Source: Siniperca chuatsi (lineage: Eukaryota; Chordata; Actinopteri; Centrarchiformes; Sinipercidae). From it: DNA of 64,000 bases. Position numbers and translations under genes: made by a program. The stretch is taken from positions 2,241,587 through 2,305,586 of the forward strand of contig NC_058058.1 in assembly GCF_020085105.1 (NCBI RefSeq). The letters run 5' to 3'. Under the pieces are notes generated by a model that searched no databases, was not told where the DNA came from, and saw only the letters and a program-made list of their open reading frames with translations. Every line of letters begins with the position of its first letter. Positions within the stretch are counted from its first letter, which is position 1. Shown here piece by piece: positions 1 through 64,000 of this stretch.

Positions 1-1
1 A

Positions 2-3000
2 GCCCCGACAACAACTGTAGCATGTGAGACAGAAGCAGCAGCAGCAGCAGCCGCAGCAACAGCAGCAACAGCAGCAGCAACAGCAGCAACAGCAGCAGCA
101 GCAGCAGCAGCAGCGATAACAGCAGCCACTGCAGGACAAACACCAGCAGCTGCAGAAAATGCTTCAATAGCTGCAATAGCAGCAGCTGCTGTCGCTGCAG
201 CAGTAACAGAAAGGAAAGCATCACCAAAAGAGGCAGCAGAAGCAGCAACCAAAGCAGCGGATGCAGCTACGGCAGCTGCAATAGCAGCGATAGAAGCAAC
301 AACAGCAGCACCAGCAGCAACAGCAGCGTTAGCAAAGCAAACCCTTGCGGCATCAATAAAAGCAGCAACAGCAGCAAAAGCAGCAGCAACAGCAGCAACA
401 TTAGCAGCAAACATTGAAGCATCACAAACAACACCAGAAACTGCAGCAGCTGCCATAACGGCTGCACAAACAGCAGCAAAAAAAGCAGCAGAAGCAGCAG
501 AAGAACTAAAAGCAATACTTAAAGCAGCAGTCATAGGACCAACACCAGCAGAAACCACAATAAAATTAGCAATAGCTGCAGCTGAGACAGCAGCTGCAAA
601 GGCAGCAGAAACTGCAAACAAAGCTACAGCAGTAGCAGAAACAGCAGCAGAAGTGGTTGCTGCAACAACAGGAGAGAAGGCAGCTGAACTGGCAGCACTA
701 TCTAAAGAAAAAGCAAAAGAGGCAATAAATGCAGCAAAAGCAGCCGCTGCCGCAGCGAAGGCAGCCACTGAAGCAGCAGTGCCAACAACAACAACAGCAT
801 CAACCACATCGAGCCCCATAACATTGGCACCAAAATCAGCAGCCACAGTGACAGCAGCATCAGCTTCTGCAGCAGGAGCAGCAGCTTCTGTGGCAGCAGC
901 AGCAGCAGCAGCCACTTCAACAGCTGCTGGGGCAAAAACATCTCCAGCTGCAGAAAAAGCAATAAAGGCTGCAAGAGAAGCAGCAAGAGCTGCTACATTA
1001 GTGGCAACAGGAGAAGCACCAGCAACCTTGGCGGCAGAAGCAGCAACAAAAGCCGCCCAAGCAGCAGCAGAAGCAGCAGCAGAAGCAGCAGCGCTAGAAG
1101 CAACAACAGCACCAGCATCAAAAGCAGGAGCAGTTGCACGACTATCAAATGTAGCATCGATAGCAGCAAAGGCAGCTGAAAAAGCAGCAAAAGCAGCAAC
1201 AACGGCAGCCTCGGGTAAACCAACAGCAATCGCAGAAACTGCAGAAGCTGAAAAAACAGTGGCTGAAAAATCAATAGATGCAGCAAAAATATTAAAAACA
1301 GAATTATCATCTGCCAGTGGGCCAACAGAAGCAGCAACACGTTTATCAATATCAGCAGCACAAGCAGTGGCAGAAATAGCAGAGGCAACAGCACTGACAG
1401 CATCAACAGCGACTGGAAATGCAACAACAGAGGGCATCGCAGCAATAATGGCAGCAGCAGCAGAGGCAGCAGCGAGAGCCGCAGCAGCAGCAGCAACTGC
1501 AGCAGAAGCCGCACTCCCACATGCAGGCGTCACAGTGCCACAAACTACTGAAGCGCCACAAGCAGCACCAACACCAGAAGCACCACCAGCCACAGAAGGA
1601 CAAACTGCGGCAGTGACAACATCCACAGCAGCCGCAGCAGCAGCAACAGCAGTAGCAGCCTCAACAGCAGCAGCCGCTGGAGCAACAACATCCAAAGAAG
1701 TAGAAGCTGCAGTAAAAGCTGCACAAGTAGCAGCTAGAGCTGCCACATTATTAGCAGCAGGAGAAGCATCAGTAACACTGGCAGCAAACGCAGCCATAAA
1801 CGCAGCAGAGGCAGCAGAAGCAGCAGCGCTAGCAGCAATACAAGCAGCATTAACAGCACCAGCAGAAACAGCAGATGTAGCAGCACAAATTGCAGAGGCA
1901 TCATCGAGAGCAGCAATAGCGGCAAGAAAAGCAGCAACAGCAGCAACAAAGGCAGCTTTGAGAACACCAACACCAGAAACATTTACAGCAGCTGCAGAAG
2001 CCGCAAAAACAGTGGCACAAGCAGCACAAGGAGCATTAGAAGCGTTATCAGCTGTCACAGCAGAAAAAGCAGCAGAAATGACAGAAGAAACACGTTCGGC
2101 AATAGCCGTAGCACAGACAGTGGCAGATATGGCGGAAGCAACAGCAATTACAGCAGAAACAGTGGCAGAAGCTGCAGCAGCAAACAGCACAAACATTTTG
2201 ACATCAACAGCAAAAGCGGCAGCAAGAGCTGCTACAGCAGCAGCAAAAGCAGCAGAAGGCGCATATCAAGACACAAATGGAACGTCAACAGCAGCAGCAC
2301 CAGTGATGACAAACGCATCCGGGACAACAGTACCAACAACAGAGGCAGAAGCAAAGGAAGCAGCAGTGGTTGGGTCGACCGCGGCAGCAGCGGCGGCGGC
2401 GGCGGCAGCCTCAGCAGCAGCAGCAGCTGCTGGACCAGCGGCATCGGCAGCAGCAGAAAATGCAGCCAAAGCTTCAAAAATAGCAGCAAGAGCTGCCACA
2501 TTAGTTGCAGCAGGGGCAGCCCCTGTGGAAGTGGCGGTAGACGCAGCAAGAAAAGCAGCTGAAGCGGCCGACGCAGCATCACAAGCAGCAATACAAGCAG
2601 CAGCAGCAGCATCACCAGCATCAGCAGCACTACGAGCAGCACAACTAGCAGCATCAGCACTGAAATCAGCACAGGCAGCAAAAACAGCAGCGACAGCAGC
2701 GACAACGGCAGCATCTGAAAAAGCAACGCCGAAAACAATGTCGGCAGTTGCACACGCAATAAAAACAGTGGCCGCAGAAGAAGCAGAAGCAGCAGCAGAA
2801 TTACAGAAAATATTAGCTGGCGCCACAGGGTTAACAGCAGCAGAGCGTGCGTCCATAACGCAGGCACAAGTGGTGGCAGAGATAGCACAAGCAACGGCAA
2901 CGGCAGCAACTACGGTGGCAGAAACAGCAGTGGAGGCGTTATCGGCTACGACAGCACAAAACGCAGCAGACCTAGCAACAGTAATGGCATCAGCAGCACA

Positions 3001-3019
3001 GGCGGCAGTAACAGGCGCT

Positions 3020-3052
<33 letters not shown>

Positions 3053-3172
3053 GCAACAGAGGTGTTACACACTTTCTCTGGCAACGCAGAATCAGGAGCA
3101 GCAGCTCTAGTCAACAACAAAATCAGTCTAATTTCTGTCACAGCGGCTGCCATTGCTGTCGTGCTTCTCTAA
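2..3172 (+). CDS. Giant alanine-rich repeat protein, 5' end outside window
   Basis: Frame 2 is open from base 2 to the TAA at 3170-3172, giving at least 1056 residues. No start is visible, so the true N-terminus is upstream or in an upstream exon. About half the residues are Ala, mostly GCA codons, mixed with Glu, Lys, Thr and Ile. Only one Cys is seen, near the left edge, and aromatics are almost absent. Helix-prone Ala/Glu/Lys blocks alternate with Thr/Pro-rich linkers near 780-840, 1515-1640 and 2265-2345. The blocks are diverged copies of one another, period about 750 bp. The C-terminus is a small-residue stretch (NAESGAAA) followed by a hydrophobic tail (ISLISVTAAAIAVVLL), as in GPI-attachment signals. 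N-glycosylation sequons (NGT, NAS, NAT) are present. A 3' UTR and AATAAA follow. The family is not recognised. The composition recalls type I antifreeze and LEA-like helices, but no function is assigned. Divergent repeats that keep the frame argue for real coding. Confidence 0.72.
240..3060 (+). repeat. About 250-residue (750 bp) tandem protein repeat, 4 copies
   Basis: The landmark ARAATL followed by a VA/LA-G-E/A motif recurs at about 985, 1735 and 2487. A second landmark (AVAEIAEAT or VADMAEATA type) recurs in each copy, and the first, partial copy carries its equivalent near 570-640. Copies are similar in protein but clearly diverged in DNA, so this is an old internal duplication and not simple GCA slippage. 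Confidence 0.75.
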
Positions 3173-3595
3173 AGAGCAACGTAACACAGCTACAGCAGCA
3201 TGTCAGGATTGATGGACTCATAGGTTAACTGTACAATACAAAGGTATATTTATTATTTTATTCTAATAGTTTACTTATCTAATGTATCGTGTGCATGTCT
3301 AAATTATGAAATTTCAATATTTATCTTTTAAAAGTCAGAGAATGGCTGATATTTAAACTTTCAGGTCAAGTGATTGTACTTAGCTGTGTGTGTGTATGTG
3401 TGTGTGCAAAATATGTCACAATTCTGTTTATAATTTAAATGAGGTTCCTAATATTGAAGGAAACTTTGTGATTATATGTAATTATATAAATAGCTTGTGC
3501 TGTAGTTTATTATTATTATTATTTTAAATTGTGTGTATTTATGATTGTAAAGTTGTGAAAACAAATTTCTGAAAGAAAATGCTAACTTCTTAATC

Positions 3596-3601
3596 AATAA
3601 A
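3596..3601 (+). terminator. Polyadenylation signal of the Ala-rich gene
   Basis: AATAAA lies 424 bp after the stop codon in AT-rich sequence without other obvious features. It fits a single 3' UTR of about 440 bases. Confidence 0.5.
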
Positions 3602-5560
3602 TGAATGATAACTACATTTTTGCCTCATTCTGTTGCATTCAACCCCTTAACGAGCTCGTCAAACTTCATTTTAAAGTCCAGTGGAGATTCCAAAGTTTCC
3701 AAAGACACCAAATATCTCAAAATGAATTTTGGGGCGTCTTGGAATATGAATGTTTGAATATTTCACTCATGCAAACATCATATAGCTTCGATGAAGAGCT
3801 GAAACAATACATACATAACAATCTGCATATATTTTTCTCCATTAAAGTGAAACTAAAGGCTTTTAAAAAGATTTTTCAAGTACACATCTTCTTATGCAAA
3901 GAGCGATACATAAAACTCAAGAAATTGTTAACACTTTACTTTAAGCTCCTATTTAGCATCTTAAAAGCAGTATATAAAATGTAAAACAACACCAGATTTA
4001 CACAGATATACGCAGTTAACTCCTCCTGTGAGGCACCCATAAGTCACAACTTGTTGTCAGTTGTGATAAAATAAAATATGTCTTCATAGAAGTTAAAATT
4101 GTTGACAAATCCCTTACATTATATTTAAACATATATATAAACACTTCAAATGTCCTCACACCTGATTATAACTCCATTATATTGTGTTATAAACCGTTTA
4201 TTAAATGTTTCTATACTGCTTATAAATGCTAAATAAAGGGGGTTATTAAACATTTTATATACAACATAAACATGGAAAGTTCTTAAATATGACAAACTAA
4301 CTGTCATATAAAAATACAAAAACTCATATAATGTGCAGTTTAGTCTGTGGTTGTGAAACAGCACAACAGTTGTTTGTTGTGGTTTTCTACAAATCGTCGC
4401 TAACTTGGATTCAAAGTAAAGAAAAAGAAGTATTAGTATAGTCGTGTGAGCACCCTGTGAACTGTCACCTCTGAACGCTCCCTCTGGCTGATCAGAGTGA
4501 AGTTTGTCGATGTCCGCGGCTGTTGTTGTGCTTCAGTTAGACTTTGTGGAATCATTATTGCCAGCAGCAGCAGTATCACCCTGAATAATTATACTATCAT
4601 TTCAACGAACAACTATAAGATAGAATATATTATATGATATAACATATGTGATTTTCCTTTTTGTTATGCATGTTTATGTGTACATATGCATAAATGTACT
4701 GCATATGGATGTATTAGTAAAGGTGACAAGTATCATTATATAACTGTTTGTTCTGTTATTGACAATGACAGAAACAGTGACAAACAACTATTGACAAATA
4801 GTTAAATGATACAATAGGATTAATCCAAGCTTTGTTAAATTTGAAGGACATAAAAGAGTTAACCAATCACACTAGGTTTGTTGAAATAATAACGGCTACT
4901 TTAAATTAATTTCTTTATGTTTACCGGAGTCTGCTTCTCATTTTCTTCTTTATTGTGTTATATTTGCCCATTACTGAGCAACAAGTGTCGCTGTCCACTC
5001 AATTTATGTATGTTTCTTTGTATATACTTCCTTTAGGGGTCATTGTGGGATTAAGAAAAGGTCTGCAGATGCATGTATTATGCATATACTGATCTATATT
5101 GTATATGATCTTTGACGAGCCACCTCTGAAACACAATTCTGCCATTTTCCAGAAGCCCATCACCTCTTTCATCATGTCACCATTTACAGTGTAAGATTAA
5201 ATGGAAATGAGCTGCAGCAGCGCCCTGAAGATGTTCAGTTCTTCTTTTTAATAATAAAAAAATGTATTTAATTTATTTATCATTATTATGATAATTAGAT
5301 TTATTTTATTCCCCCTTCTTCTCTCTCGTCCTCTTCCTCGCACTTGCCTGCACATTCCTCTGGTCACACTTACATACAACTAAAAATCTGTACCAAATTC
5401 AAATCGTAACATTTGTTTGTTAAGTCTTACTGTTCTGTGTTATTGTCTGTATATTTTGTCTGTCTAATTTTTCTAATTTGTCACCTTTTTGTACTATGTC
5501 GCATTGCTTGTTTTGAAAAGTGCTACACATATTAAAGTTATTATTCTCTGCAACACAACA
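3602..5560. other. AT-rich intergenic stretch, no gene supported
   Basis: Between the Ala-rich gene and ring1. It holds a chance-looking 127-codon open frame (3601-3984) and AT-rich low-complexity sequence. No splice-supported or family-recognisable coding sequence was seen on either strand. Confidence 0.6.
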
Positions 5561-7513: not shown

Positions 7514-10500
7514 CCCCACGAATCCTGGGGAGTGTTGTTATACTGTTTATTACTCATTCTGTCATTACAATTTACAAATTAAAAGTCCTCTATTAATCTG
7601 TTCTTAATTATGATGTTTTATTATTTTATTAATATAAATTGAGAAAATCAGTCAAATGCTCGTCCTCAGTCCCTCCCAGCCTTAAACTGTGTTTATAACT
7701 CTCTCTCTCTCTGCGGGATAGTCCCAATGATAGATGAATCTCAAATTTCACCATTTCCACTGTGAAAATCAGCTAAATGTTTTAGATTTTTTTGGATCGT
7801 CCTTTAACATATTTTACACTTCTGTTAATTTCAAAAGGAAGCCGGAGATGAAATTTATAAACATGATGTCGCACTTTTGAGGCGACAGTGTATGATAATA
7901 CGTGTGTGTGTGTGTGTGTGTATTCAGGAGGCGATCATGGATGGGACGGAGGTGGCGGTGTCTCCGCGCTCTCTGCACAGCGAGCTGATGTGTCCCATCT
8001 GTCTGGACATGCTGAAGAACACCATGACGACCAAAGAGTGTCTGCACCGCTTCTGCTCCGACTGCATCGTCACCGCGCTGCGATCAGGGTGAGCACGACA
8101 CGGCAGCAACTGATCCGTATTTGTTTTGTAGATTAATCGGTTGTTTAGTCAACGAAGGAGAGCGCTAGGTGACGTCTTCAACTTGCTTGTTTTGTCCAGC
8201 CAATAGCGGTGGGTCGCATAGATCTTAATGTGGTATCATAATATTGAAAACATTGCAACATGCTGACATATTTACATCAGGACTACAAACAGCAGCAACA
8301 CACACGGCTGTTATCTGGTTATTAACTTAACCAAACGTCTCGATAAATGACTTTAAACAATTAACTGACTGTCAAATAATATCCTGTCAGTTGACTAATC
8401 AATTCATCTTAATCCACACACACACACACACACACAACATTTTCTACGTATAATAAGTGTTGAAAATGAATGTAGAAGATGTGTAAGATGCATGAATCAT
8501 GACACCTCAGCCTGGTAATTTATTTTATAGCAACAGAATAAAAAAATTAGCATCTTCTAGAAGCTAAAGTTTTATATGAGTTGGATTGCGCTACTTGGTT
8601 TTACAGCCTCGAGTCAAACCTGTTTATCGCCTTTATTTCAATTGCAGTGCATTTAAAAAGCACATATTTTGACTGGAATACTGTGCAGATGCTTTAAACT
8701 GACCAAGATATGAGCTCAGAACTAACAGGCCGCCATATCGCCTCCCTCCGCAGGAACAAAGAGTGTCCGACCTGCAGGAAGAAGCTGGTCTCCAGGCGTT
8801 CGCTGCGCCGAGACTCCAACTTCGACGCGCTGATCTCGAAGATCTACCCGAGCCGGGACGAGTACGAGGCCCACCAGCGCCGCGTCCTGGAGCGACTCAA
8901 CAGGCTGCACAACAAGGAGGCGCTGAGCTCCAGCATCGAGGAGGGGCTCCGACAGCAGGCCCGCTACAGGTCCGAGAGGTGGGGGAGGAAAGGGGGAGAC
9001 GGCTGAGGGTCGCATACAGATACAGACGATACTTACAGATTTAGAATCATTTATTTCTCCAAAAACAGACATTCCCATTAGGTTACTTTATCTATAAATA
9101 GTTTCTCAGTTAAATATCCAAAATATTTACTATATCACAATATAGTATATCGACATCATAACATGAAATTCACACCTACCGTGATTGACATTTTGGTCTA
9201 TATCACCCTCCCCTGTTTCCAATTAAAGTGATGCCCAAAAAGTTTTCTTCAGCCAGCAAAGTAAAGTCAAATCTGACTTTATTCAAACTGAATAACTTTA
9301 ATCAATAACTTGAATTTTTGAGATATTCTAGCTCAAAGATTTTCAATTTTCTTTGGGCTTTAAAGGACGGGTTCACAATTGAAACAGGTTATGCTTGCTG
9401 TAATCATTCCTGCTGTTCATACTGGACATTAAAGGATCTCTTTATAATGCACTTCCAATGTTAAGTGATGGGGGACAAAATCCACAGTACTCATTGTTCT
9501 TTCTGTCGGTAATAATAACATTTTACTCACCAAGTTAGTATCTGAGATCCGTGAACACGGTGACATCAGTGAAAAGAAGTCTGATGGGCCAAAAAAAAAT
9601 AAAATCAAGCCGATGAACCAGAATTTCGCCTTAAAGACGGACTGCTGGTCACGTGTTAACCTCCGCCCTGCAGGAACCACCGGGTGAAGAAGCCGACTCA
9701 GGAGAGTGACAACACCACCTTCAGTGGTGGGGAAGATAACGGCGACGCCCGCTCACATCTATCTCATGACTCCGCCCCCTCACACACCCCTCACCCCCCC
9801 GGTCAGACCCCCTCAGAGGCCGGGCCGAGCCGCAAGCGGCCGCGAGTATCGGACGACGGCTCAGGGCCTGAGGCGGACAGCGGCAGCCCCACCCCTCCGC
9901 TGAGACGCCACAAAGAGGGGCCGGGCTCGGAGATAGAGCTGGTGTTCAGACCACACCCGCAGCTGGTCCAAGACCAGGACTACAACCAGACCAGGTGAGC
10001 CTGGACCAGAGGGCCAGTTTGCATCTACAGGCGCTGCTTTTAAAAGCTCAAGAACTACCTAACTTGATCATTTTGACACCTGAAACCTTCCTGCATGATT
10101 TTTAAAATTTGGTCTTTATTACCAAGATTTAACTCAGTCGCAGATTTCTTCATATTTGGTCTAATATCTGCGAACACTGATAAATCTAAAACTCTGCACT
10201 GACAAGAAATGGTGGCCTTTAGCTTGAATGTAAATCAAATTTAACAGTGAATTTGTGCTGTGACTGAATGCATGACTACATGTCACTTTGCCCCTAAAAT
10301 CAGGAGTGTGTGTGTTTGTCTGAGGAGAAATTCCTGTCATCTTATTTCTTATCAACATTTCTTTCTTTGCAGATATGTGAAGACGACAGCCAACGCCACA
10401 GTGGACCATCTGTCTAAATACCTCGCTCTGCGCATCGCTCTGGAGGAGGGACAGACCAACCGAGAGACGGAGGACAGAGGAAGAGAGGAGGGGGGAGGAG

Positions 10501-15835: not shown

Positions 15836-20561
<4,726 letters not shown>

Positions 20562-23800: not shown

Positions 23801-26800
23801 CATTTTATGTAGAAGATGATTTTGGAGTTTACGAGAAATTTGGCATTGTTTCCAGAAAAGGAATAATTTTTAGTCTCAAAACAACTCTCACCTGCACTTT
23901 CCCTTCATGTCACCGTATCTCTTTTTTGTTTCTTTCTGTCTGTGCTCCCACCTTCCTCTTCTGCTCCCCCCACGATGTATCTGTCTTCACTTTGTGGTTT
24001 TCAGTGTCTGCTTCATGCTGATTCCCCTAAAAAGATTTACTCAAACTTTCAAGCTCTTTAATTAACTTGTTACACACAAAACCAACCATTTACAAAAGCA
24101 AGGAGCATAGAGCTCTGTCCTCTTCCTCCAGTGTGAACAGCAGGAATTTCTATCAATAAAAGTATTTTTAACTTGAAGTTGTTTTCTGTCTGTCCATTCG
24201 TTCTTTCAGCGTATGGAGGGCATGCTGAGTGGCTTCCAGAGCGACCTGTCCTCCATCAGCAGTGAGATCCACACTCTGCAGCAGCAGTCGGTCAGCATGA
24301 ACGTCCGGCTGAAGAACAGGCAGGCGGTACGCAGCCACCTCAGCCAGCTGGTGGACGAGCTGGTGGTGCCCGGAGCCATGATCTCGTAAGTGGGACGGAG
24401 AGAGTGGTGGTTCAAAACAGCTGTTAGGACAGTTGAATGAACCGTAGAAGTGTGAAAGAGCGTGTGTTTGTCTGACGTCGTCCCGTGTCGTCGCAGCACC
24501 ATCCTGGACAGCCCTGTGACGGAGCAGGAGTTTCTGGAGCAGCTCCACGAACTCAACAACAAGATCAACTTCGCCAAAGAGCTGAGCTTCAGAGAGACGC
24601 TAGCCTGCTCCGACATCCAGGACATCGTCGACCGACTCAAACTCAAGGTGAGACAGAGAGAGGATATGTATGTTTTTAATTCTTCAAATTTATTAGGATG
24701 GAATAACAAGGGCTCCAAGTAAAGATTATTTTCACTGAAATAAAAACTGAAAGATGCTCATCACAGTATCCTACAGCCCAAAGTGACTCCGTCAAATGTG
24801 ACGGTGTAGTCCCTCATTCGTCCAGGAGTGTTCCATCGTAGAAAAGGTTTCAGTCGTAGTCATCTGGACACTGTTTTCAGAATCAAGACGTTTCGGCTCC
24901 CATCCGGAAGTCATTCTCAATTGTGAAAATGGTCTGAGAACTCAGAAATTTAAGCTACCCTGTTGTTTAAGCCCTGCCCTCAGGGAAGAATCTACCTGAG
25001 TGTCTGCAGTTACCCTGCCTAGTTTCACCTGAAACTGCCCTTCTTTTGTTTCCATGATGGCCCAGTAATCAGTAATCAGGCCTATTGTTTTCTGGCTGCA
25101 CCTCCCTCATCACTGTTAAGTACCAGATTAGCATATTTAAACAGAAATGGTGGTCTGAGATTCAACTTGCCAACTGTTTACCACAGTGTATTAGCACCTT
25201 GGTCAAGCCAATCATATGCTAATCAGGCACTTAACAGTGATGAGGGAGGTGCAGCCAGAAAACAATAGGCCTGATTACTGATTACTGGGCCATCATGGAA
25301 ACAAAAGGTCAGTTTCAGGTGAAACTAGGCAGAGTAATCAGCAGATACTCAGGTAGACTCCTCCCCGAGGGCCGAAGCAACACAGAGTAGCTTAAATTTC
25401 TGAGTTCTCAGACCATTTTCACAATTGAGAATGACTTCCGGATGGGAGCCGAAACGTCGTGATTCTGAAAACAGTGTCCAGATGACTACGACTGAAACCT
25501 TTCCGTCAAATGTCTTGATTTGTCCGACCAACAGTCCAAAACCCAAAAATATTCAATTTACTACAATGTAAAAACAACAAAAGCAGCAAATCCTCACGTT
25601 TCAGAACCTGGAAGGATCACATGGATGGTATTTTTGCTTGAAAATGACTTAAACGATAAATCGATTATCAAAATAGTTGAAGATTCATTTTCTGTCGATC
25701 GATTAATCGACTAATTGTTTGCATCTCTAAAAATAACAGAAGGAAGTTGGATGAAAAACCATCACTAATGCAAAAACACGGACAGAGATTAAATTATACA
25801 AATATCGTGTGCAGCACCTTTCTCTTTAAAGACTCTGTTTTTCTCTTCTTCCATGACAATTGTGGAACAGGCACCTTGTTGTGTATCATCCTTTTACAAA
25901 TTAAACTCTTGCTGACGTGAAACTATATTAATATTATTTCTGCCTCACTTCAGGCGGTGTCAAAAATCCGAGAGTTCATTCTTCAGAAGATCTACTCCTT
26001 CAGGAAGCCGATGACCAACTACCAGATCCCACAGAACACTCTGCTGAAGTACAGGTGAGCACGGCTGCACCTGCTGGTTCTCACTCTCTCTTCAAAGATA
26101 CTTTACGCTATAAAAATGATGCATCTATCAGCTCCTCTTCTTTATTCAAGTTCTCTATTGGAGATTTTATTGTCTAGATAAACAAAAGTCACAAAATGAC
26201 AAAGTCCAGGAAAATGCTTACAGCTATTTTTTGTTTCGTGGAACATTTTAGGACTTTGCGTTGCCTTTGAGTGTCATACTTTAACTTTATGCATAGAAAT
26301 TATCTTTTTTTTTACTACACTACATTAGTTTTGTTAGGAAATTTAACAGAATACAGCTTCAGTTTTGTACCAATGACAATAGAGAATATCTTTACAAGTA
26401 TTAATTTCTTTTCAAAACCCTTCGTAGTGTAAAAAAGGTCATCTGCAGTTGTAAATGGTGCTCAGAAAGCTGCAGATATTCACACCCTGAACATTTAAAC
26501 TTCCAGTTTCTGACTGAAAATAACAGCCGATACATTCTGTCCTTTGTTTCTTCTTACTGTAGGTTTTTCTATCAGTTCCTTTTGGCCAACGAGAGAACAG
26601 TTGCGAAGGAGATCAGAGACGAGTACGTGGACACGATGAGCAAGATTTACTTCAGTTACTTCAAGTCGTACAGCGGCAGGCTGCTCAAAGTGCAGGTCAG
26701 TGGATTCACACAGGAAACCACGAAGTCATGACGGCTGTGAGCTCATTTCTGTTTCATCAAACTCCACACATGTACATCAGTATGAGTCTGTGCCTCGTCC

Positions 26801-32353: not shown

Positions 32354-35300
32354 AGGTACTGGGAGGCGGTGCTGGAGCTGCTGTGGCCAAGGTTTGAACT
32401 GATTCTGGAGATGAACATCCACAGCATCAGAAACACAGACCCTCAGAAACTGGGAGTACTAGACACCAGACCACACTACGTAGGTCTACACACACATATG
32501 CACACACACACAGGGACAAGGACAAACACACACATATACACACCCCTCATGTGTTTGATCACACACATATCAGCACACACAGCAGAGCATTTCACTTAAA
32601 TAAGTGTGTGTTTCTTGGTTTCAGATCACTCGTCGTTATGCGGAGTTTTCATCAGCCATCGTCAGCATCAACCAGACATTTCCCAATGAGAGAACCCACA
32701 CTCTGCTGGGACAGCTGCTGGTATAACACACACACACACTAATATAAAACTGAATGTCAAAGTGCTTGAAGACAAACACATTTGAAACCAAAAATAAAAT
32801 TAGCATTCATTCAGAGATAAGAGGTCAGTGTGATCTGCAAGTTATCTGACCTTTTTTAACTACATTTTCACAATAAATTGACCTTTTTGGTTACTTCTCT
32901 TTGCTACTTTTGCTCAGAAAACAACAGGTACGGTTTTGAGAAAAATAACTTGGCTGATAATAATAATAATGATAATGATAATAATTTTGTCATAAAACTT
33001 AATTAAAGTGTGAGTTTCAAATGAGCAGGCCGGCAGCGACCTGTTTGCAATGTAACATGTTCCACTGAAGTGAATGAAAATGTGCAGACGTTAGATTTTT
33101 TTTTTTATCACTCTCTGTGAACTAATGATATTATATGAAAAACATGAATATTTGCTTTCCAGGTTGAGGTGGAAAACTTTGTGCTAAAGATGGCGGCAGA
33201 GTTTCCCTCCAGAAGAGACCAACTCATCTTCCTCATCAACAACTACGACATGATGCTCAGTGTCCTCATGGTGAGCTTCAAAACCTGCATGTTCGTGACT
33301 CGGCTTCGTGGTGAAGGACCAGATGTTTTTCAAATAGTCAAACATGTCATTTACTTTTTGGTTACCTGTTCTTACGTGGAAATGTTGATCACAGGTCTCG
33401 TCATACCTGCCTGAGGTTTTCTTTTATTCTGACCTGTGGGAAATTAAAAAATTCTGCTTTTGGTAAAATCCTTGCGTGATGATTGTTTTTCCCTTGTTCG
33501 TCCAGGAGAGGGCAGCCGACGACAGTAAAGAGGTGGAAGGTTTCCAACAGCTGCTTCTGGCCAGGACGCAGGTAAACAACACAGAGGAATTATAAGAAAT
33601 CTGAGCACAGGAAAGAAGGGAGTGTAACAGGGCTTCAGAGTTTTATTTGAACACACATGCAGGTATATTTAAAAGTGTTAATTGACTCTAGAAACAGGTC
33701 AAATTTTAGCAATGAAACAGAGAACTAGAAACTGGTTAAATGGAGATGAAGGTCACAGTTAAACAGCATAGAAGGTGATATCATTAGATTTAGGCAATTT
33801 AGAATGACATAATAGAGGTGCAGCCTTGAGTAATGGGCTTAAAAACAAAATTATATAATTCAAGTATTTCTCCGTCGTTTGGTAGCACTTTAGCATTCTC
33901 AGTACCTTTTTTATTTAAAACTTTCTTTCTACATATTTCCTTTTATTTTAATGCAATAAATATATACAGATGGGTGACAAATTAAAGGAAAAACCAACAT
34001 GAAGTGTGTTAGTATGGAGTCAGGCCGCCACGAGCCAAGTCTCGGGAACTCTACTGGAGGGATGAACACCTTTTTCGAAAAGATATTCCCTCATTTGGTG
34101 CTTTGATGATGGCGGTGGAGAGCACGTCGGTCCAAAATCTCCCATAGGTGTCCAGTTGGGTTGAGATCTGGTGACTGCGAAGGCCACAGCATATCATTCA
34201 CATCATCTTCATACTCATCAAACCATTCAGTGAGCCCTCGTGGCATCCTGGAGGAGAGCACCCCCATCAGGATAGAAATGTTTCGTCATAGGATAAAGGC
34301 GATCACTCAGGACAACTTTGTATTGATTTGCAGTGACCCTTCCCTCTAAGGGGACACGCTGACCCAAACCATGCCAGCAAAATGCCCCCCACAGCCATAA
34401 CAGAGCCCCCTGGATCCCCTCACCGTAGGGGTCCAGCATTCAGCGCTGTACTGTTCCCCTGGTGTACGCCACACATGCACTCGCCCACTTGTCGAGAATG
34501 TGGTGAAGGATGACTCGTCTGACCAGATCACCCTTTTCCACGTCTCTGTAGACCGGTGCCGATGGTTTGAGCTCTCAAATGTGCATTCATCTTTGTAATG
34601 AGGGGTTTCAGCGCTGCAGCCCTGCTGTAACATCCCTCTCTCTGTCACTGTCGACGGACTGTTGTTGCTGGCAGTCTGATCACGTCCAGCATTGACATTC
34701 TCAGTCAGCTGAGAAAGAGTCGCCCTTCTGTTTTGTCTTTCATATCGCACTAATGCACGAGCGTCATGTTCTTCAAATGCGCGCTGTCGACCACAATTTC
34801 CGACCCTACTGATGTCTTTCCCGCCACTCCAGTCACTGTTCCTACTGAAACACAGCTGAGCAGTCTCTGTGACCGAAGCTCCCGCCGTACGTGCCCCAAC
34901 AATGAACCCTCTTTCAAAGCCACTTAGATCTTTTCCTCCTGCCATCTTGATACACAATCGGAGTCAGCTGGGCCTGCTCAGCATGTTCATACACGCCACA
35001 GAGCATGATTTGGATGTTAATTCCTTAAGTGTACCATGCAGTGCACCTGCATTCGTTATGTTTCCCCACTCATTTATTCAGGTTTTGAAGGTTTGATGTT
35101 TTCACGTTTGACCAAAACTAATTTGAAGCCCGTCATGTTTTTTCTTCCTCTCGCCTGCAGGAGTTTATTGAAGAGATTCTGTCTCCCCCCTTCGGAGGGA
35201 TGATCGCCTTCGTGAAGGAGGCCGAGGCTTTGATGGAGAAAGGGCAGCTGGACCGATTAAAGAACGAGGAAGGTGAGAGGAGTCGATTTGTTTTGGTTTG

Positions 35301-40625: not shown

Positions 40626-43600
40626 CTAATGTACCTGCCTTTTATATTCCATCTCACAATTAACTTGTCTCTTAACAGTTTCCATTTCACAGTTGTTTCG
40701 ATTTAAACGCAGCTCTGTTATATTCAAACATCTGTCAGCGGTGTGCCACCTTAAAATGAAATTAAATCCAACCCAAAGAGCAGCAGCAAGAGCTCTGATT
40801 GGCCAGACTCCTGCCAACACATAGAAGCTGACCATGTGCAAAAGTTTCCAAACCTTCTATTATTTATTAATGTGCTAATTCTTTCATTTTCAGTTTTCCT
40901 AAAGCTTAAGGTGACATCTTCAAAATGTCTTGTTTTGTACAACCAACAGTCCCAAAGCCAAATACATTCAGTTTATAAAGACATAAAACAGAGAAAAGCA
41001 GAAAATCCTCACATTTGAGAAGCTGGAACCAGAGAATATTTGGTAAATAACCTAAACGATCAATTATCAAAATTGCTGGAGACTTATTGGCTTATAGATT
41101 AGTCAACTAATGCCCCAGGAGGTAAAGTAGGCCTCTCACCTTCCACAGAGAGCTGCACGGTGCTGACAGCGAGGCCCTGTTCATCCAGAACTTTGTACGT
41201 TCCTTCGTCTGAGCTCTTTAACTTCCTTATTGTCAGCTGCTCTCTCAGTGGATGTTTCTCCAGACGCTCACTGTCTTCATCCCCCCTCATCCACAGGTTC
41301 GACCACTCCGAGCTGTTCCTGTGGAGCAACGGTTAGTAACCGTTAGAATGAGGCAAAAACAGACACTGCCAAAACATAAAAACCAGGCTTAGTGCCTGCC
41401 AGCGCCCCCTAGAGACTGCAAAGTTCATTAGAGCCACACAAAATGTAAGTGTTGGATGTAAGTGGGTCTTTATCCTTTGTGCATCCTTTAGAATCTTTTG
41501 TCCTTGACATTACTGTTGCTGCAACAAAACATCTAACTGTGCTGCAGTTATGTACAAGCAACAAAAGGGACCACAAAGACAAAGACAGCAGCCAACTGGG
41601 CGTCCTTGTGACTCCGCATAAGAAAAGCCTGAAGTGACTCATTAAATGTTCTGTTTACTAAATGCTCTAAAAAAAGACGTTTGACGTATGAATGCGACAT
41701 CATGGTTCCTGTGTCTGTATTTACAGTAAATGTCCCAGCAAAGGATTGGCTGTTATACTTGCTTACGATTATGACTTCTATAAAATAAGTTGATAAATGT
41801 GTTTACAGTACATGACAAGACCTAATTTGAAAAATAGTCTTTTTTTTTCCCAAAACCCACATGCTTCTGTCTGCATTTAGCCTCTATTTTGTAAGCAGAC
41901 GTCATAGGGTGAATCAGGAGCCTGTACAAATGACTGTTTGCTGTAACCAGCAGTTTTTTTTTTGGGCGGGGGGGGTTAGGTAACTTGAGGGTGGAAGCAG
42001 AGACAAGACAGGAAAATAAGTGATGAGAGTAGGTGAAGTGTGTAAAGAAGAAATGAAGAGGAGAAAAAGGATGGAGGAGGTGAATGTAGACACATTTTGT
42101 TTTTATATTTGGTTTATTTTACTTTAGGGGGAAAAGTGTTTGTTCGTACGTAAGCAGCTCACCTGCCCTGGAAGACCACTCTCACAGAGTGACGAGTGTG
42201 GAGATCCAGAACTAAGTCCTCACCTGGACTGTGAGACTGTAAGGATTTGTGGTCTAAGAGAGAAAACAAAACCAAATTCATCAACATTCGGATCAAAACC
42301 ATCCAGAGTAAAGACCTCGGCATTGTTAAAGACAAATAAAAATGAGACTACATGGAGATTAAATTAGAAAAAGATATGATGACAAAAGAAATAAAAGAAA
42401 CAGTTTACCAAAGTAGAATGAAAACAAAAGACGAGACACGAGACAAGATAACAGTAAATGAGAAAATCTTATCTTAAATTAGAGTTTAGATGGACTGGAA
42501 AGGGGGACAAAAAAAACAGACGAGAAAGGAAAACAGATATGAGGGTAGATGAGGAGAAAGGTGGAGATAGACGAAAAATGACGTGCTAAAAAACAGGAAG
42601 GAAAGAAAAGATGATTCAGGAGAGCAATGGAGGAAGGATGAGATGAGACAAATTAGACAGTATACAGAAACAGATGAATGAAAAGAAAGAAAAACAGATG
42701 AAAAGATGAGATTACATGAGATGAGAAGCGTTCGATACTAGAGTAGAACAAAAAGACAAGAGGGGAGACGGAGGATCAGAAAGGAGATGAGATGAGAAAA
42801 TTAGGTGAGATTTGAAAATGACAATCATGTGAGATGAGAAACAGAAGAAATTTTGAAATGAGGGATGAGATTACAATACCTGATTAGAGCGGGTGGAATG
42901 AGAAAGAGGACGTGAAACAAGATGGAAACATGAGAAAGGACAGCACATGGCATAATGGAGAAGGAAAGAGTAGACGGTATGAGAGTGGACAACATGAGAG
43001 AAGTCATTAGAGTAGACACATAAGAAACGTCGAGGAGATGAGATGAAAAATTAAGATAACAATAAAACAGATCAGAAAAAAGAAGAGAGGTGGAAAAGGA
43101 ACAACCTGAGAAGACAATGGAACAAAAACCAGAGAGAATAACAGAAAAGAAGAAAGATGAGGGTATGAGATGAAGAAACTAAAGAAGAGATGAGGAAAAA
43201 GAATAGAAAGATAACCCCAACTAACCAAACACAGACAGCTTGACGCTCTGAATGAAGACCCTGGTTTTTTTGGACCTCACTCCGTCAACCACCATGAAGC
43301 TCTCGTATCTCCCCGAGTCTCCGATCTGAACGTCGCTGATGATCAGGGAACAATCCCCGGACCCGAGCCTGTCCTCAGGAACCTCCGCCCGGCCCTCGAA
43401 CTCCTCCGCCTGCCACTTCTGCTCTCCCCGCAGCTCGAACACGGTGTCGGCCGGGGTCGTCCACTGGATGTGGCAGGCGGACGGGGCCACGTCCCCCAGA
43501 CGAGGCTTCCAGCTGCAGGGAAGGACCGCCTGGTTTCCCACGCTGGAGCTGACGGACTGGAAATGGCTGGCGGAGGACAGGGAAGAGGAGTCTGGAAGAA

Positions 43601-45793
43601 GAGAGGCATTGAAGGAGGAAATAGAGGAAAATCTCACCAGTTCGGAGGTCTTTTAGAGGATATGTTCTGTTAAAGAAATATATATGACGAGGTGACCCCA
43701 GTGGTGGAAAGTGACCAAGTATATATACTCAAGTACAATTTTGAGATACTTGTACTTTACTCAGGTATTTCCATTTTATGCTGCTTTATATTTCTACTCC
43801 ACTACTACAGGGACATATCGTACCTTTGACTCCAATACATCTATTTAACAGCTGGAGATACTTGTTTTTACCTTAAAAAATGTACAATATAAGCTTACAA
43901 AATGCGACACATTGCTAAATTTAAACCAGTAGTTCTCAAACTTTTTGGCTTGTGACCCTTTACAAAAAAAGCAGTGTGTAGTTGGAGCTCCTCGTCATAT
44001 TTCAGATGACATTTCCCATCTAAACTTGTCAGAAGGTTTCATTTAAACAATTGTTCAAGGCCCAAATTGGTCACTTTATCCAATATTTCTGTTTTTTCTT
44101 CTTTCCTCTCCCATTAAGCATCTCACGACCCCTCAGATTTATCTGGTGACCCTTTGGAGGGGGCCCGACCCCTAGGTTGGGAACCGCTGGCCTAAACTAT
44201 CTAAAAAATAGCTCCACCTCGAGCAGCTACAATAGTAAAAGGCTGCTCTAATGCATGCATCAGTATTAATCTGATAATATCAGATGTAAAAAAATCACAG
44301 GAGACATTTTAATATTTCTGAAATGTTCCTACTTTAAGTACATTTTAAATTTTAGAAGAAGGATTTTTACTTATACCGGAGTACTTTCATTTTGCTGTAT
44401 TGGTACCTTTACTTAAGTAAAAGGATCTGAGTACTTCTTCTGCCACCGGGTGACCTACTATATTAAGATGTTATATTGAGAAAAAGAGTTCCAATATAAG
44501 ACAATAATCAGTGTGTTGACAGATATTAATATGTTTTATTCTCGTCGACAGATAGCGGGGGTTCGGTTCTCTTCTTGTGGAACATTAAGCTCTTACTATT
44601 GTCTTGACTTCCTGTCCCTTCACTGCCATTTCTCTTGTGATTTCAGTTACTAAAAGAGAGAGAGAGAGATTGTAGCTTTTGCACGTTTGACAAAACAATC
44701 CCAACTCGAGGTCCACTTACTAGCATTTTCCAGAGCTTTCAACCATCACGCGGCCTTCATCAGCAGATGGCGTCTGCTTAGTTGTCATGGAGATGGATCT
44801 GTTGACATGCAAGCTCAGGAGCTGTTATGATTTCAAAGCACTTACAGCAACTTCTCGTTCATGCTGGCTTAAACACTAAGCATCACTTCGTTCTTGACTT
44901 AGTTGAAAATGGGTGTAATACGGTTGAAAGCCCCGGTGAAAGCAGGTGGACCTTGAGTTGGGATTGCTGTATCAAACTTCAAGGTCAAGAATTAACTTTG
45001 GTCCTTAACTTTTAAGCCACCGCGGGCATGAAATCCTGAAACTGCGCTCAAAACATGTTATTATAATACAAAATGTTTCTGTGTAACAAAAAAAGAGAGA
45101 GCGACAAACACAAAAAGCCTATAAAAGACATTTTCTGAGTACATACATTTTTACTTTATGTGTCGTCGCACGAAGACTGTAGCAGACTGTCGCTTTTATT
45201 AAGAAATCCGCATTACACATTATTATATGTTCATTATTCTCACACGACTGTAACCGAGGAAACTGAGATTCGGGGAATGCCACTGCAACAATATACAGGG
45301 TGCGATTTATCCTTCAGAGTCGAGCTGCACGAAAATACATTTTTATCAGTGTTTATTTTTAAAACCAGTTCAAAGTGATATCACAGAACATTTTGTCTCC
45401 TCTACTGCAGCATCGATATGTAAAATATTAAAACTGCACTGGGAATTGGTCTTAACTTTCACGATTTAACACATGATGTGATTTATTTCTGTGACTTTTT
45501 GCTGTTGCATTGGACGATTAGTAAATATTGAGTTTTATGACCTTAAACCTCAGTTAACCCTGAGGTACGAGGACCTCTAATGGCGCTCAGGTGACTCGTG
45601 CAGAGCACAGCAGCTGCGGTCGGACGAAACAACGGGTGCAGATTAAAGCACAGCTGCTGTGGACACAACAGTGGGGGTTAAACCTGTTTTAAACCTTAAA
45701 CCGCAGCTAAGCTAATGACAGAGCAACAGCCACGTAAGCTCATACTCACCAACTAAACTGCCAACCAGGACACAGTGTAGATGTATGAAAAAC
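40626..45793 (-). CDS. Gene B: two-Ig-domain membrane protein (tentative model)
   Basis: Exons on the minus strand: 45793-45750, 43591-43226, 42253-42163, 41318-41140, and tentatively 40810-40626; all junctions in phase. The first exon reads FFIHLHCVLVGSLV, a signal-peptide core. No ATG precedes it in frame, but an upstream exon ending in AT would create a split ATG. Domain 1 is V-like (VLPCSW, HIQWTTPADTVFEL, SLIISDVQIGDSGRYESFMVV), but the F-strand Cys is Ser; other Cys occur in SACHIQW and SGDCSLI. Domain 2, split over two exons, has LTIRKLKSSDEGTYKVLDEQG and no canonical Cys pair. The last exon gives a possible membrane helix (PIRALAAALWVGFNFIL) and a short basic tail. It is the weakest part, because the opposite strand there faintly resembles retroelement code. 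Divergent from gene A; an ISRE lies upstream. Name unknown. Confidence 0.6.
40905..41112. repeat. hAT-like element next to gene B Ig exon
   Basis: GGTGACATCTTCAAAATGTC to GATTAGTCAACTAATG, same family as 10800-11100. It ends 27 bp from the gene B exon at 41140. Confidence 0.65.
42330..43215. repeat. Purine-rich GATGAG-type low-complexity stretch
   Basis: The plus strand is dominated by A and G with recurrent GATGAGA and GAAAAGA words. It is pyrimidine-rich on the transcribed sense of gene B and fills the intron between its two Ig domains. Confidence 0.8.
43698..44452. mobile_element. hAT-like non-autonomous element
   Basis: Left end CAGTGGTGGAAAGTGACCAA and right end AAGTACTTCTTCTGCCACCG are imperfect inverted ends. 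The interior has TACTTGTACTTTACTCAGGT and ACTTAAGTAAAAGGATC. Same family as the arms at 52.9 and 57.4 kb. In gene B intron 1. Confidence 0.75.
43925..44196. mobile_element. Second MITE nested in the hAT-like element
   Basis: Left end CCAGTAGTTCTCAAACTTTT and right end GTTGGGAACCGCTGGCC are inverted ends of another common fish repeat. It lies wholly inside 43698-44452, so it inserted later. Confidence 0.75.
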
Positions 45794-48705: not shown

Positions 48706-51700
48706 ATGATGGCAGGTGTCACATGGATCCTCACTGTGCTTTGTAAGTTAAAGATTGTTTTATATTTGTATTTGCTGATTTAAATGCAGGCCGGGCACCA
48801 GGCTTCACCACTCACTGTGGGCACTGTGTGGACAAAGCCAAGGACTGCTGGGGTGAGATAAGGCTCGATGTAGAGGCGTATCGTTGTCTATGTTATGTCT
48901 GGTTTTGCTTATTTTGTTTATGCTCCTGATTTTCACTCACGATGCTCATGAATCAGGCGGCTGTGGTGAAGTCACACACCTAAAAATACCAGAAGCCAAA
49001 CTGAAAGAAAACAAGCTGGCAGGAACATCTGTCACCTGAATGTGTCCTCACGCCCATTTCTCCGCGGCACAGCCTGGTTCGGGCCGTCCTGGTCTGGACC
49101 GGGACAGGCTGATGCTGTAGGCTCAGCTGGATGGTCCCGAGGTCCTAACAGGACAGGCACGTCCTTACATCTGCAGACGACACGGCTGCTGCTTCGTGGA
49201 AACGGCGTGGGCCTGTGGTCAGTCATTTAGCAGAGGTCACAAGTTGTTTTATTGACTTCAAAGGACAACACGCAGACGTTGTGGAGAGCCACGGGTTCCT
49301 CGGGACTCATATTGATAAGAAACTGAGCGCTGATGGAAACACTGAGGCAATGTGCAAGAAGGGGATAACAAAGGCCGTATTTTCTGCTGAGGTCAAATGT
49401 TTTTAGTGTTGTATTTTACAGATCCATCATGGAATCAGTCCTTAGCTGCTCACTGATTTGTTGCTATGGAAATCTAAACGTATCAAACAGGAATTAACAG
49501 GTAGAAATTGTCAGGCAGCGGGTAAAATCACTGGTTTACAGCAGACGAATCACACAGAAAGCTCAACCCTTCATATCAAACCCAAACCATCGTCTCCTTA
49601 ATGAATTTCACATCCTCCCCTCGGGTCAGAGCCGCATGAAGTATTGATCCCCTGTGCAATAAGTGCTCTTAATTCTACTACATTAGAAACTGCCTCCTGG
49701 CTCCTCACACAGCTTAGCGTTTTATTCTTCGTGTTGCAGCTCTTGTTGCTTTTATCATAAAAGGGTGTATGATGAAAGCAACAAAAGCTGCAACACGAAG
49801 AATCAAGCTGAAGAAACCGTTTTTGTGCTGGGAGGTTTTGGTCCTGATGGACCGCAGCCTCAGTATCTTGGGGCCCCTTCAAGATCAAGTACCCTAATAA
49901 CTGTAATCAGCCACATGATACTGACCTTCCTCCTTGACCTCCTCAGGTGTCGCAGGATGTTACCTATCTTCAGCCTCACCTGTTCTCCGCTCTGCCCGGG
50001 TCGGGCAGAACGTCTCTCTGACCTGTAACCTGACGTCCAGCAGCGAGATCACCTGGTACCGTCTGCGCTCAGAGCAGCTGCTGCCTCTGCTGACGGTTAA
50101 ATCGAGTAAAGTGGGAGAAGATACGGTCGACTTTCACACTGCAAACAACAGTCGCGTCAACAATAATGGAGATCTGGAGAGAGGCCTGGTCGGCCTGGAG
50201 ATCCTGGAGGTGGAGGAGGAGGACGGCGGGCTGTATTTCTGCACCGGGCGGTGTGCAGGAGCTGTTTGTGTTAACAGAGGAATTCATGTGGCTGTTGATG
50301 GTAAGAAGGAAAACTGGAGCACAAATCAAAGAGCTTAAACATCTTCATCATACAGCAGTGCTTTGAGCTAAATGCTAACGTCAGCATGCTAACACGCTCA
50401 CAGTGACAATACTAACATTCTGATGCTAAGCAGGTATAATGTTTGCCACGATCACCATCTTAGTTTAGCGTGTTAGCATGCTATTATTTGGTGATTAGCA
50501 TTAAACACAAACAGCTGAGGCTGATGGGCACGTCATTAGCTTTGCAGGTAATCGACATACACGAAAGATCTGGACAAACTGAAATTTCGATCTGTTGATG
50601 GCGCCGAAGTTATTACAATTCATCCTGAGGGAGACATGAATGTGTGAACCAAATGTCACGGCAACACATCCAATAGTTTGTTAGTTGACACGTTTCACTG
50701 AAAGCCAGAACTGTCAACCTGTTGGTGGCGCTAGAGGAAAAGGCAGAGGATCACCAAAGTCAGGAGGATTCATCCTCTGGGAACCATGAACGTCGAAACA
50801 AACTTTCATGGCAATCGGTCCAATCGCTGTTGAGAGATTCCAGTCTGAGCCAAAGCGGTGGACCGACCATGTGACCGACCAGCATTGTCATCGTAGCTTG
50901 GCTGAAACAAGCTGAACAACTGGAGCGAAGAAAGAAGCAAGGCAGACATATGGCAGACGAAAAACATAAAGAGTTTTCATGATTTTATGGTCAGAATTAC
51001 AATAAATGATTCTGCAGGACGTTGCATAAATAAATCTATGCAGAAAAGTTTTAATCAAGCAATCGTTAAGATATAAACAGAATCAAGTTCTGACGCATCT
51101 GAAAGGGGAATGTTGTATGTTGCTTATACTGAGTGAAAGGGTCAAACGCAGTTACTCCATGTTTCTGCACCAATACATCAGACATGAAATATGAAAATGA
51201 AATGACGTGAAAATTTCCACATGACTCGTGCGTCATTCTCAACATTTCCCCGAAGTTTAGTCTGACATATTTGTTATCTTTGGGAACGTTGAGCTCTCCG
51301 CTGGAATCTAAAAACAAAACCTCTGTGGGTTTGAACAAAGCTTGAACAAAACAATACTTGCAAAGTTTGTAAAGCTGGACACACTGGCACATGTCCATCA
51401 CAGGTGAATCATTATGACAGAATCATACTCTTTGTATGTAGATGTCAACTTAAAAAACAAAGAAACGAATTAACCCTTTCATTTACAATAACTAGATTTG
51501 AAATAGTAAGAAGCTGAAGACTGAATAAATGGCGCTGCTTAGCTGAGATAAAGGTCATGGTGGCATTTCTGTGGAAAAGAGTAGTTTCAGTAATGACAAT
51601 GTTTCTTCTAAAGTGATGTAAAGCCTGATCAGCGGCGCTGCCTTGGCAGGAAATAGAGGTTTTGATGCGTTGGTTTTTTTTTTGTCAGTTACCGAAAGAC

Positions 51701-63840: not shown

Positions 63841-64000
63841 CTGAGGGGGCAGAAACAAAGAGGAATTATGAGTATTTGTCATTGTGTTTGTCAACTAGTT
63901 TTATATTACACAATGGAAGGGATTTTCCGTCCGGTATTTTTATTTTTACGTAAAAACACAACCACAGCTAACCTGGTTGGCAGGTGCTTCTTTTACCTGC

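Follow-up and report, generated by a model that had tools for sequence, protein, structure and literature searches.

An alanine-rich open frame beside MHC-linked genes of Siniperca chuatsi as part of a probable gene for a GPI-anchored surface protein of helical blocks

GPI-anchored coat proteins are well known as a class. Mucin-like repeat genes near MHC genes also have a counterpart in humans, where mucins of the MUC21/MUC22 type are transmembrane proteins with Ser/Thr repeats; the likeness to the fish cluster described below lies in repeat type and location, and homology is not claimed. For the Ala-rich gene beside that cluster in Siniperca chuatsi, the nearest working model would be the BARP/MISP proteins of Trypanosoma brucei, Ala-rich or related coat proteins which, as described in PMC10089363, likewise combine a signal peptide, a helical-bundle ectodomain and a GPI anchor in a small multigene coat family. 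However, BARP/MISP belong to an unrelated organism and are described there as a single three-helix bundle, whereas the fish protein consists of four repeated blocks; the likeness is one of plan only and no sequence relation is claimed. Ala-rich helices are shared with Maxi of winter and starry flounder and with other type I antifreezes, and the flounder antifreeze genes also carry a signal-peptide exon and show repeat growth, according to PMC3855684 and PMC9122973. In the same accounts, however, type I antifreezes have 11-residue Thr repeats and more than 50% Ala, are soluble and, in flounder, sit at the HDAC5/XYLT1 locus, none of which applies to the gene studied here. The (TTAAPAA)n neighbours of this gene share Thr/Ala repeats and some Pro with the antifreeze glycoproteins (Ala-Ala-Thr repeats, as PMC3855684 presents them), but their unit is seven residues long rather than three and holds two neighbouring Thr, and they carry a GPI-type tail. 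In open-access PMC full text we found no description of a vertebrate GPI coat protein of repeated Ala-rich helical blocks beside like-planned, mucin-like, MHC-linked genes.

The DNA analysed (the window) is a stretch of 64,000 nucleotides, C17:2241587-2305586 (C17 is contig NC_058058.1), from a host genome of 718.8 Mb in 65 contigs. The original prediction had pointed to an unbroken frame of at least 1056 codons from the window edge. It is confirmed: the frame at 2..3172 (+) runs through 1056 codons to a TAA stop at 3170-3172. The gene starts outside the window, and the edge cuts off 64 bases of exon 3, the last exon. With the order of parts read from the host genome, the frame is the main exon of what is predicted to be a complete gene:

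C17:2239943, plus strand, TATA-like box GTGTATATATAG, from upstream genomic DNA
C17:2240068 (last base), plus strand, exon 1, probably non-coding, followed by a GTAAGT donor
C17:2241333-2241429, plus strand, exon 2, with an ATG at 2241390 in A(-3) context, then a GTAAGT donor
C17:2241523, plus strand, start of exon 3 at an AG acceptor, 64 bases before window base 1
window 1..3172, plus strand, the portion of exon 3 inside the window, with the Ala-rich coding sequence, from the sequence and upstream genomic DNA
window 3083..3169, plus strand, GPI-type signal, NAESGAAALVNNK and hydrophobic ISLISVTAAAIAVVLL, judged by rule
window 3173..3620, plus strand, probable 3' UTR, AATAAA at 3596-3601, its end guessed from the AATAAA

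We take exon 1 to be non-coding, since no good signal-type ATG occurs before exon 2. The coding part of exon 2 is 40 nt long from ATG to donor and encodes the signal peptide MIIKTVIVVVMLI; the spliced frame reads MIIKTVIVVVMLIASYSQPAEGSLKPKCPRRTTTIAPTTTVACETE straight into the Ala-rich frame, giving a predicted precursor of 1091 aa with only two Cys, residues 28 and 43. The GPI-like hydrophobic tail seen in the original prediction is borne out by rule: small residues, a spacer and a hydrophobic end are present, and the last 16 residues have a mean Kyte-Doolittle value of 2.65. Judged by rule, the precursor carries both ends expected of a GPI-anchored protein, with the Ser of SGA in the tail as the likely attachment site.

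How much the open frame itself says about coding deserves some care. The longest open frame in 200 dinucleotide shuffles, taken over all six frames, was 351 codons, and the stops expected in the frame number 13.8 from position-independent composition and 1.4 from in-frame first-order composition, against none observed. Openness by itself is nevertheless weak evidence of coding, because the antisense Ala frame is nearly open as well, with one stop in 1055 codons and a longest run of 754; for this reason the open frame alone was rejected as proof. Codons that begin with T avoid A or G in second position (TA 1, TG 1, TT 24; Fisher p 1.9e-8 versus A- or C-first codons), and this avoidance is common to the antisense frame for TA, but not for TG (29 TG antisense). 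Taken without the rest of the gene plan, the frame is suggestive only. The case for coding made in the original prediction is supported far better by the signal-peptide exon, the AATAAA and the like-planned neighbours than by openness, and we read this as a real gene, almost certainly for a secreted surface protein.

In composition, Ala accounts for 462 of the 1056 residues, followed by 139 Thr, 79 Glu, 56 Ser and 52 Lys, and GCA runs are numerous. The Ala-richness first reported therefore holds, although at 44% it falls slightly short of the 'about half' given then. The assignment to no known family also stands: profile searches with the frame returned no family in Pfam up to E 10 and none in NCBIfam up to E 1, and a search of PDB sequences returned no match. 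With the block profile, the PDB search matched only a designed helical repeat protein, at E 0.63. Within the host genome the protein appears to be single-copy, the frame finding only itself at E 0.001 in a protein search in which 44 of the 112 candidates were scored.

The frame is built of four blocks, separated by linkers rich in Pro, Thr and Ser (P+T+S):

window 2..808, plus strand, block 1 (frame residues 1-269), from the in-frame block alignment
window 809..1570, plus strand, block 2 (frame residues 270-523), modelled below, from the same alignment
window 1571..2347, plus strand, block 3 (frame residues 524-782), from the same alignment
window 2348..3169, plus strand, block 4 and C-terminal tail (frame residues 783-1056), from the same alignment
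window 773..856, plus strand, linker of blocks 1/2, 57% P+T+S
window 1514..1636, plus strand, linker of blocks 2/3, 41% P+T+S
window 2264..2386, plus strand, linker of blocks 3/4, 34% P+T+S

The four blocks are homologous to one another. Aligned in frame, they measure 254-274 residues each and share 44-49% pairwise identity. As a control, the codons of the blocks were shuffled and the blocks realigned in the same way; three shuffle windows were used, with 25 shuffles for each. Mean block identity is 47.1% compared with 33-35% in these controls, non-Ala identities per block pair are 36.7 compared with 19-20, and invariant non-Ala columns number 9 compared with 1.3-2.0. The invariant columns total 63, of which 54 are Ala and the others include Leu, Ile, Glu, Pro, Thr and Gly. 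The four diverged in-frame copies of about 250 residues described from the letters alone, and the Thr/Pro linkers said to divide them, are thus both recovered. At matched fourfold codons the third base is the same in 374 of 589 cases versus 344.3 expected, block pairs 2-4 and 3-4 showing a slight surplus; agreement this close to expectation indicates that synonymous sites are near saturation. The bias against non-synonymous change that had been looked for between the blocks is present weakly, mean dN/dS being 0.81 compared with 0.96-0.98 (sd 0.04-0.05) in the shuffled controls, and is read as a weak purifying bias only, because an alignment made on the protein favours low values. As proof of coding, dN/dS alone was rejected, the bias being too small.

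Given block 2 and a four-sequence alignment of all the blocks, AlphaFold places seven helices at residues 8-39, 46-66, 72-100, 103-134, 139-167, 173-204 and 207-235. The best model has a pLDDT of 71.6 and a pTM of 0.70, and the five models span pLDDT 57.6-71.6. The spacing of charged residues favours 3, 4 and 7, and their periodicity is strongest at 104 degrees (z 7.0, where 95% of shuffles give less than 3.1). At p<0.05, helix 5 is clearly amphipathic in three of the four blocks and helix 7 in two, and none of the remaining helices is so in any block. Helical periodicity also appears in the antisense reading, there for ILVMF (z 7.9), because varied codons are common to both strands; since periodicity and TA avoidance both appear antisense, neither proves coding.

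Upstream of the Ala-rich gene, C17 was scanned from 2.11 Mb to the window for neighbour frames. Seven minus-strand repeat frames were found at C17:2172952-2220771, about 20-70 kb away:

C17:2172952-2173792, minus strand, gene A, Thr-rich
C17:2180005-2185991, minus strand, gene B, Thr/Ala, two overlapping frames
C17:2191865-2192797, minus strand, gene C, (TTAAPAA)n
C17:2195857-2197074, minus strand, gene D, (TTAAPAA)n
C17:2204653-2205615, minus strand, gene E, (TTAAPAA)n
C17:2208676-2209617, minus strand, gene F, (TTAAPAA)n
C17:2214943-2220771, minus strand, gene H, (TTAAPAA)n, 1943 codons

A signal stretch of 40 nt from ATG to donor, with the same intron phase, lies upstream of six of the seven, F being the exception. 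After splicing, the frames of C, D, E and H run uninterrupted from the signal ATG, across (TTAAPAA)n, into a GPI-type tail (323, 418, 333 and 1955 aa, respectively), and A and B hit a stop ahead of their GPI-type tails, at 227 and 825 aa. A and B, with their early stops, and F, with no recognisable signal exon, look either like disrupted copies or like errors made in assembling the repeats. The interior of H is a 21-bp array of 269 copies, and the strand opposite H is open for 1956 codons (Ala/Val/Gly; locus L004:1245-7112, plus strand). Repeat frames thus stay open on both strands, so that for the cluster genes the evidence is carried by the gene ends, not by openness. Whole-genome searches with the 5' end of H gave seven matches, only in H, E, C, D, B and A, and with its 3' end six, only in H, E, F, D, C and B; since the ends of H match cluster genes only, the cluster is a one-locus family.

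We would next weigh what kind of product the Ala-rich gene makes. That it is an expanded GCA repeat staying open by chance, with no function, would fit the many GCA runs and the nearly open antisense frame; yet the signal exon, splice sites, GPI tail and AATAAA stand in the correct order, the blocks keep invariant Leu, Ile, Glu, Pro, Thr and Gly columns, and their residues remain alike where third bases agree little above expectation. We regard this reading as very improbable. The linkers and the mucin-like neighbours lend more credit to a mucin-type glycoprotein, in which dense O-glycosylation of Thr (13%) would hold the interior as an extended brush and not a helical bundle. Against it, P+T+S makes up just 21% of the frame (226/1056, with 31 Pro) and reaches its 34-57% in the linkers only, and the conserved charged residues at helical spacing and the seven modelled helices speak for a fold; such a brush is quite unlikely. 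An ice-binding protein of the type I antifreeze kind at the skin or gill surface, close to the helical antifreeze-like protein entertained in the original prediction, would account for Ala-rich helices with many Thr, and type I forms arose several times in fish (PMC3855684, PMC9122973, as far as these sources describe). It is disfavoured because Ala stands at 44% as opposed to the more than 50 mol% stated for type I in PMC3855684, Thr pairs 11 apart number 17 versus 18.3 expected with no lag-11 excess, a GPI tail is present, and the locus is another one, the flounder antifreeze neighbours being COL1A1, HDAC5 and XYLT1 in the account of PMC9122973. The 11-residue Thr repeat is described for the flounder, cunner and short sculpin forms, and the snailfish form is described as being without it (PMC3855684). 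On present evidence the gene is thus not an antifreeze, an identity to which we would give very little weight, and Ala-rich fish genes annotated as antifreeze by composition may, by way of warning, be something else. What stands most likely is a rod-like surface coat protein, in line with the giant surface protein first suggested; the signal-peptide exon, the GPI-like tail and the neighbours of the same plan support a surface location. The egg-coat role suggested beside it gained neither support nor contradiction, no domain having been recognised.

Whether this gene is a member of the neighbouring family is a separate matter. Its signal stretch has the 40 nt and the phase-1 GTAAG donor found in six of the seven neighbours, and 26-27 of the 40 nt are identical to theirs. 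In BLASTN, 51 bases spanning the signal exon and its donor match C, D, E and H at 78% (E 0.001), and this counts as one match because those four are near-copies; a DNA match joining the exon 3 acceptors was dropped, as the 51 bases cover the signal exon and its donor. The mature N-termini are alike (ASYSQ, compared with ASGNAQ, ASGNSQ or ASCIKQ in the neighbours), and the tail NKISLISV resembles NKMSLISV in gene A, a likeness equalled by 2 of 2000 shuffles (24/30 bases by eye). The tail similarity is weak to the (TTAAPAA)n genes (64/2000) and absent to gene B (1427/2000). Similarity is modest and confined to the signal exon, splice phase and GPI tail. A secreted or GPI-anchored gene of separate descent, in which short signal and GPI sequences converged on the same plan, would explain why the interiors have nothing in common, why the gene lies on the opposite strand, why whole-genome DNA searches with the 5' and 3' ends of H miss it, and why codon shuffles reach the signal-exon similarity in 851-1389 of 100000 trials (about 1%; base shuffles in 0-6 of 100000); exon 1 and the 3' UTR likewise have no match to the cluster neighbours. 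Convergence fits less well with the same 40-nt length and phase-1 junction, the common AS..Q mature start, the BLASTN match and the tail match to gene A, and we hold it to be unlikely. Membership of the family is thus likely, though not proven.

If the Ala-rich gene is a family member, its interior may have arisen as those of its neighbours did. A 21-base period is seen in 7 of the frame's 25 tandem-repeat rows. Matching non-GCA codons are also in excess at lag 7 (z 2.7), as well as at lags 3 (2.3) and 20 (3.2). A common minisatellite origin of the frame and the 21-bp (TTAAPAA)n array is a hint, not a demonstration. One could go further and picture a local cassette family that held on to its signal exon and GPI tail while newly grown short-repeat DNA took over the interior again and again, first as Thr runs and later as 21-bp (TTAAPAA)n. 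In one member the regular Pro would then have been lost, and an Ala-rich heptad sequence would have become a folded seven-helix domain that was duplicated four-fold. We offer this as a speculative scenario, itself improbable as it stands; if true, a minisatellite within a mucin-like gene gave rise to a helical-bundle domain.

On balance, we favour a gene for a secreted, GPI-anchored surface protein of helical blocks, probably a diverged, inverted member of the adjoining mucin-like cluster, acting in a surface coat. The plan shared with the cluster would be a non-coding exon 1, a signal exon, one large exon and a GPI tail, around a different repeat interior. The exon 2 signal peptide, followed by ASYS from exon 3, would direct secretion, and the C-terminal tail would be swapped for a GPI anchor. 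Each block of about 255 residues may fold as a bundle of about seven helices, as the one modelled block suggests at moderate confidence, and the Pro/Thr/Ser-rich linkers, probably O-glycosylated, would join the blocks into a string of rods standing on the membrane. Cys 28 and 43, near the mature N-terminus and distal to the membrane, could link molecules or close a loop. Together with the cluster products, this protein would most likely form a glycocalyx of epithelial or blood cells, to which it would contribute the helical rod, and its Thr-rich and (TTAAPAA)n neighbours the mucin-type brushes. The gene would then be a worked case of low-complexity DNA becoming a folded surface protein.

Other antifreeze connections were also considered. 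A SAF-domain search hit the genome at two places only, which gives no hint that type III antifreezes have expanded. A salmonid 'antifreeze protein Maxi-like' locus lies in another place, adjoining R3H domain-containing protein 1, as given in PMC12465772, and Gig2 is described as the progenitor of the flounder antifreeze genes in PMC9122973. Descent of the Ala-rich gene from Gig2 was rejected, the candidate Gig2-like frame being 51 kb distant. That frame, 54517-55068 (minus strand, 184 codons), we take to be of the Gig2/VHSV-induced type, on the cue that a VHSV-induced gene lies beside VPS52 in salmon; its Pfam search gave no match.

Beyond the Ala-rich gene, the window holds a RING-finger exon at 7829-8089 (Pfam zf-C3HC4), whose gene is read as ring1, a minus-strand frame near 15840 that we take from its translation to be rps18, and a Vps52 coiled-coil exon at 24456-24719 (Pfam). 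The MHC class I region of Atlantic salmon contains RING1, RPS18, VPS52 and a VHSV-induced gene (PMC1971071), and this layout identifies the surroundings of the Ala-rich gene as a teleost MHC-linked region. V-set immunoglobulin-domain frames occur at 43224-43652 (minus), 49925-50335 (plus) and 63560-63865 (minus) by Pfam, probably receptors of this region. That the Ala-rich gene lies near these frames and MHC-linked genes does not argue for an immune role. The gene slc39a7 adjoins RING1 in other vertebrates; sought by its Zip domain, it was absent from 2.1-2.3 Mb of C17 among the 33 matches listed. The frames at window 34349-34963 (minus; no Pfam match) and at locus L003:5931-6272 (plus) resemble pieces of Tc1-type transposases. 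Units of 52, 116 and 416 bp make up a tandem array at window 55052-55900.
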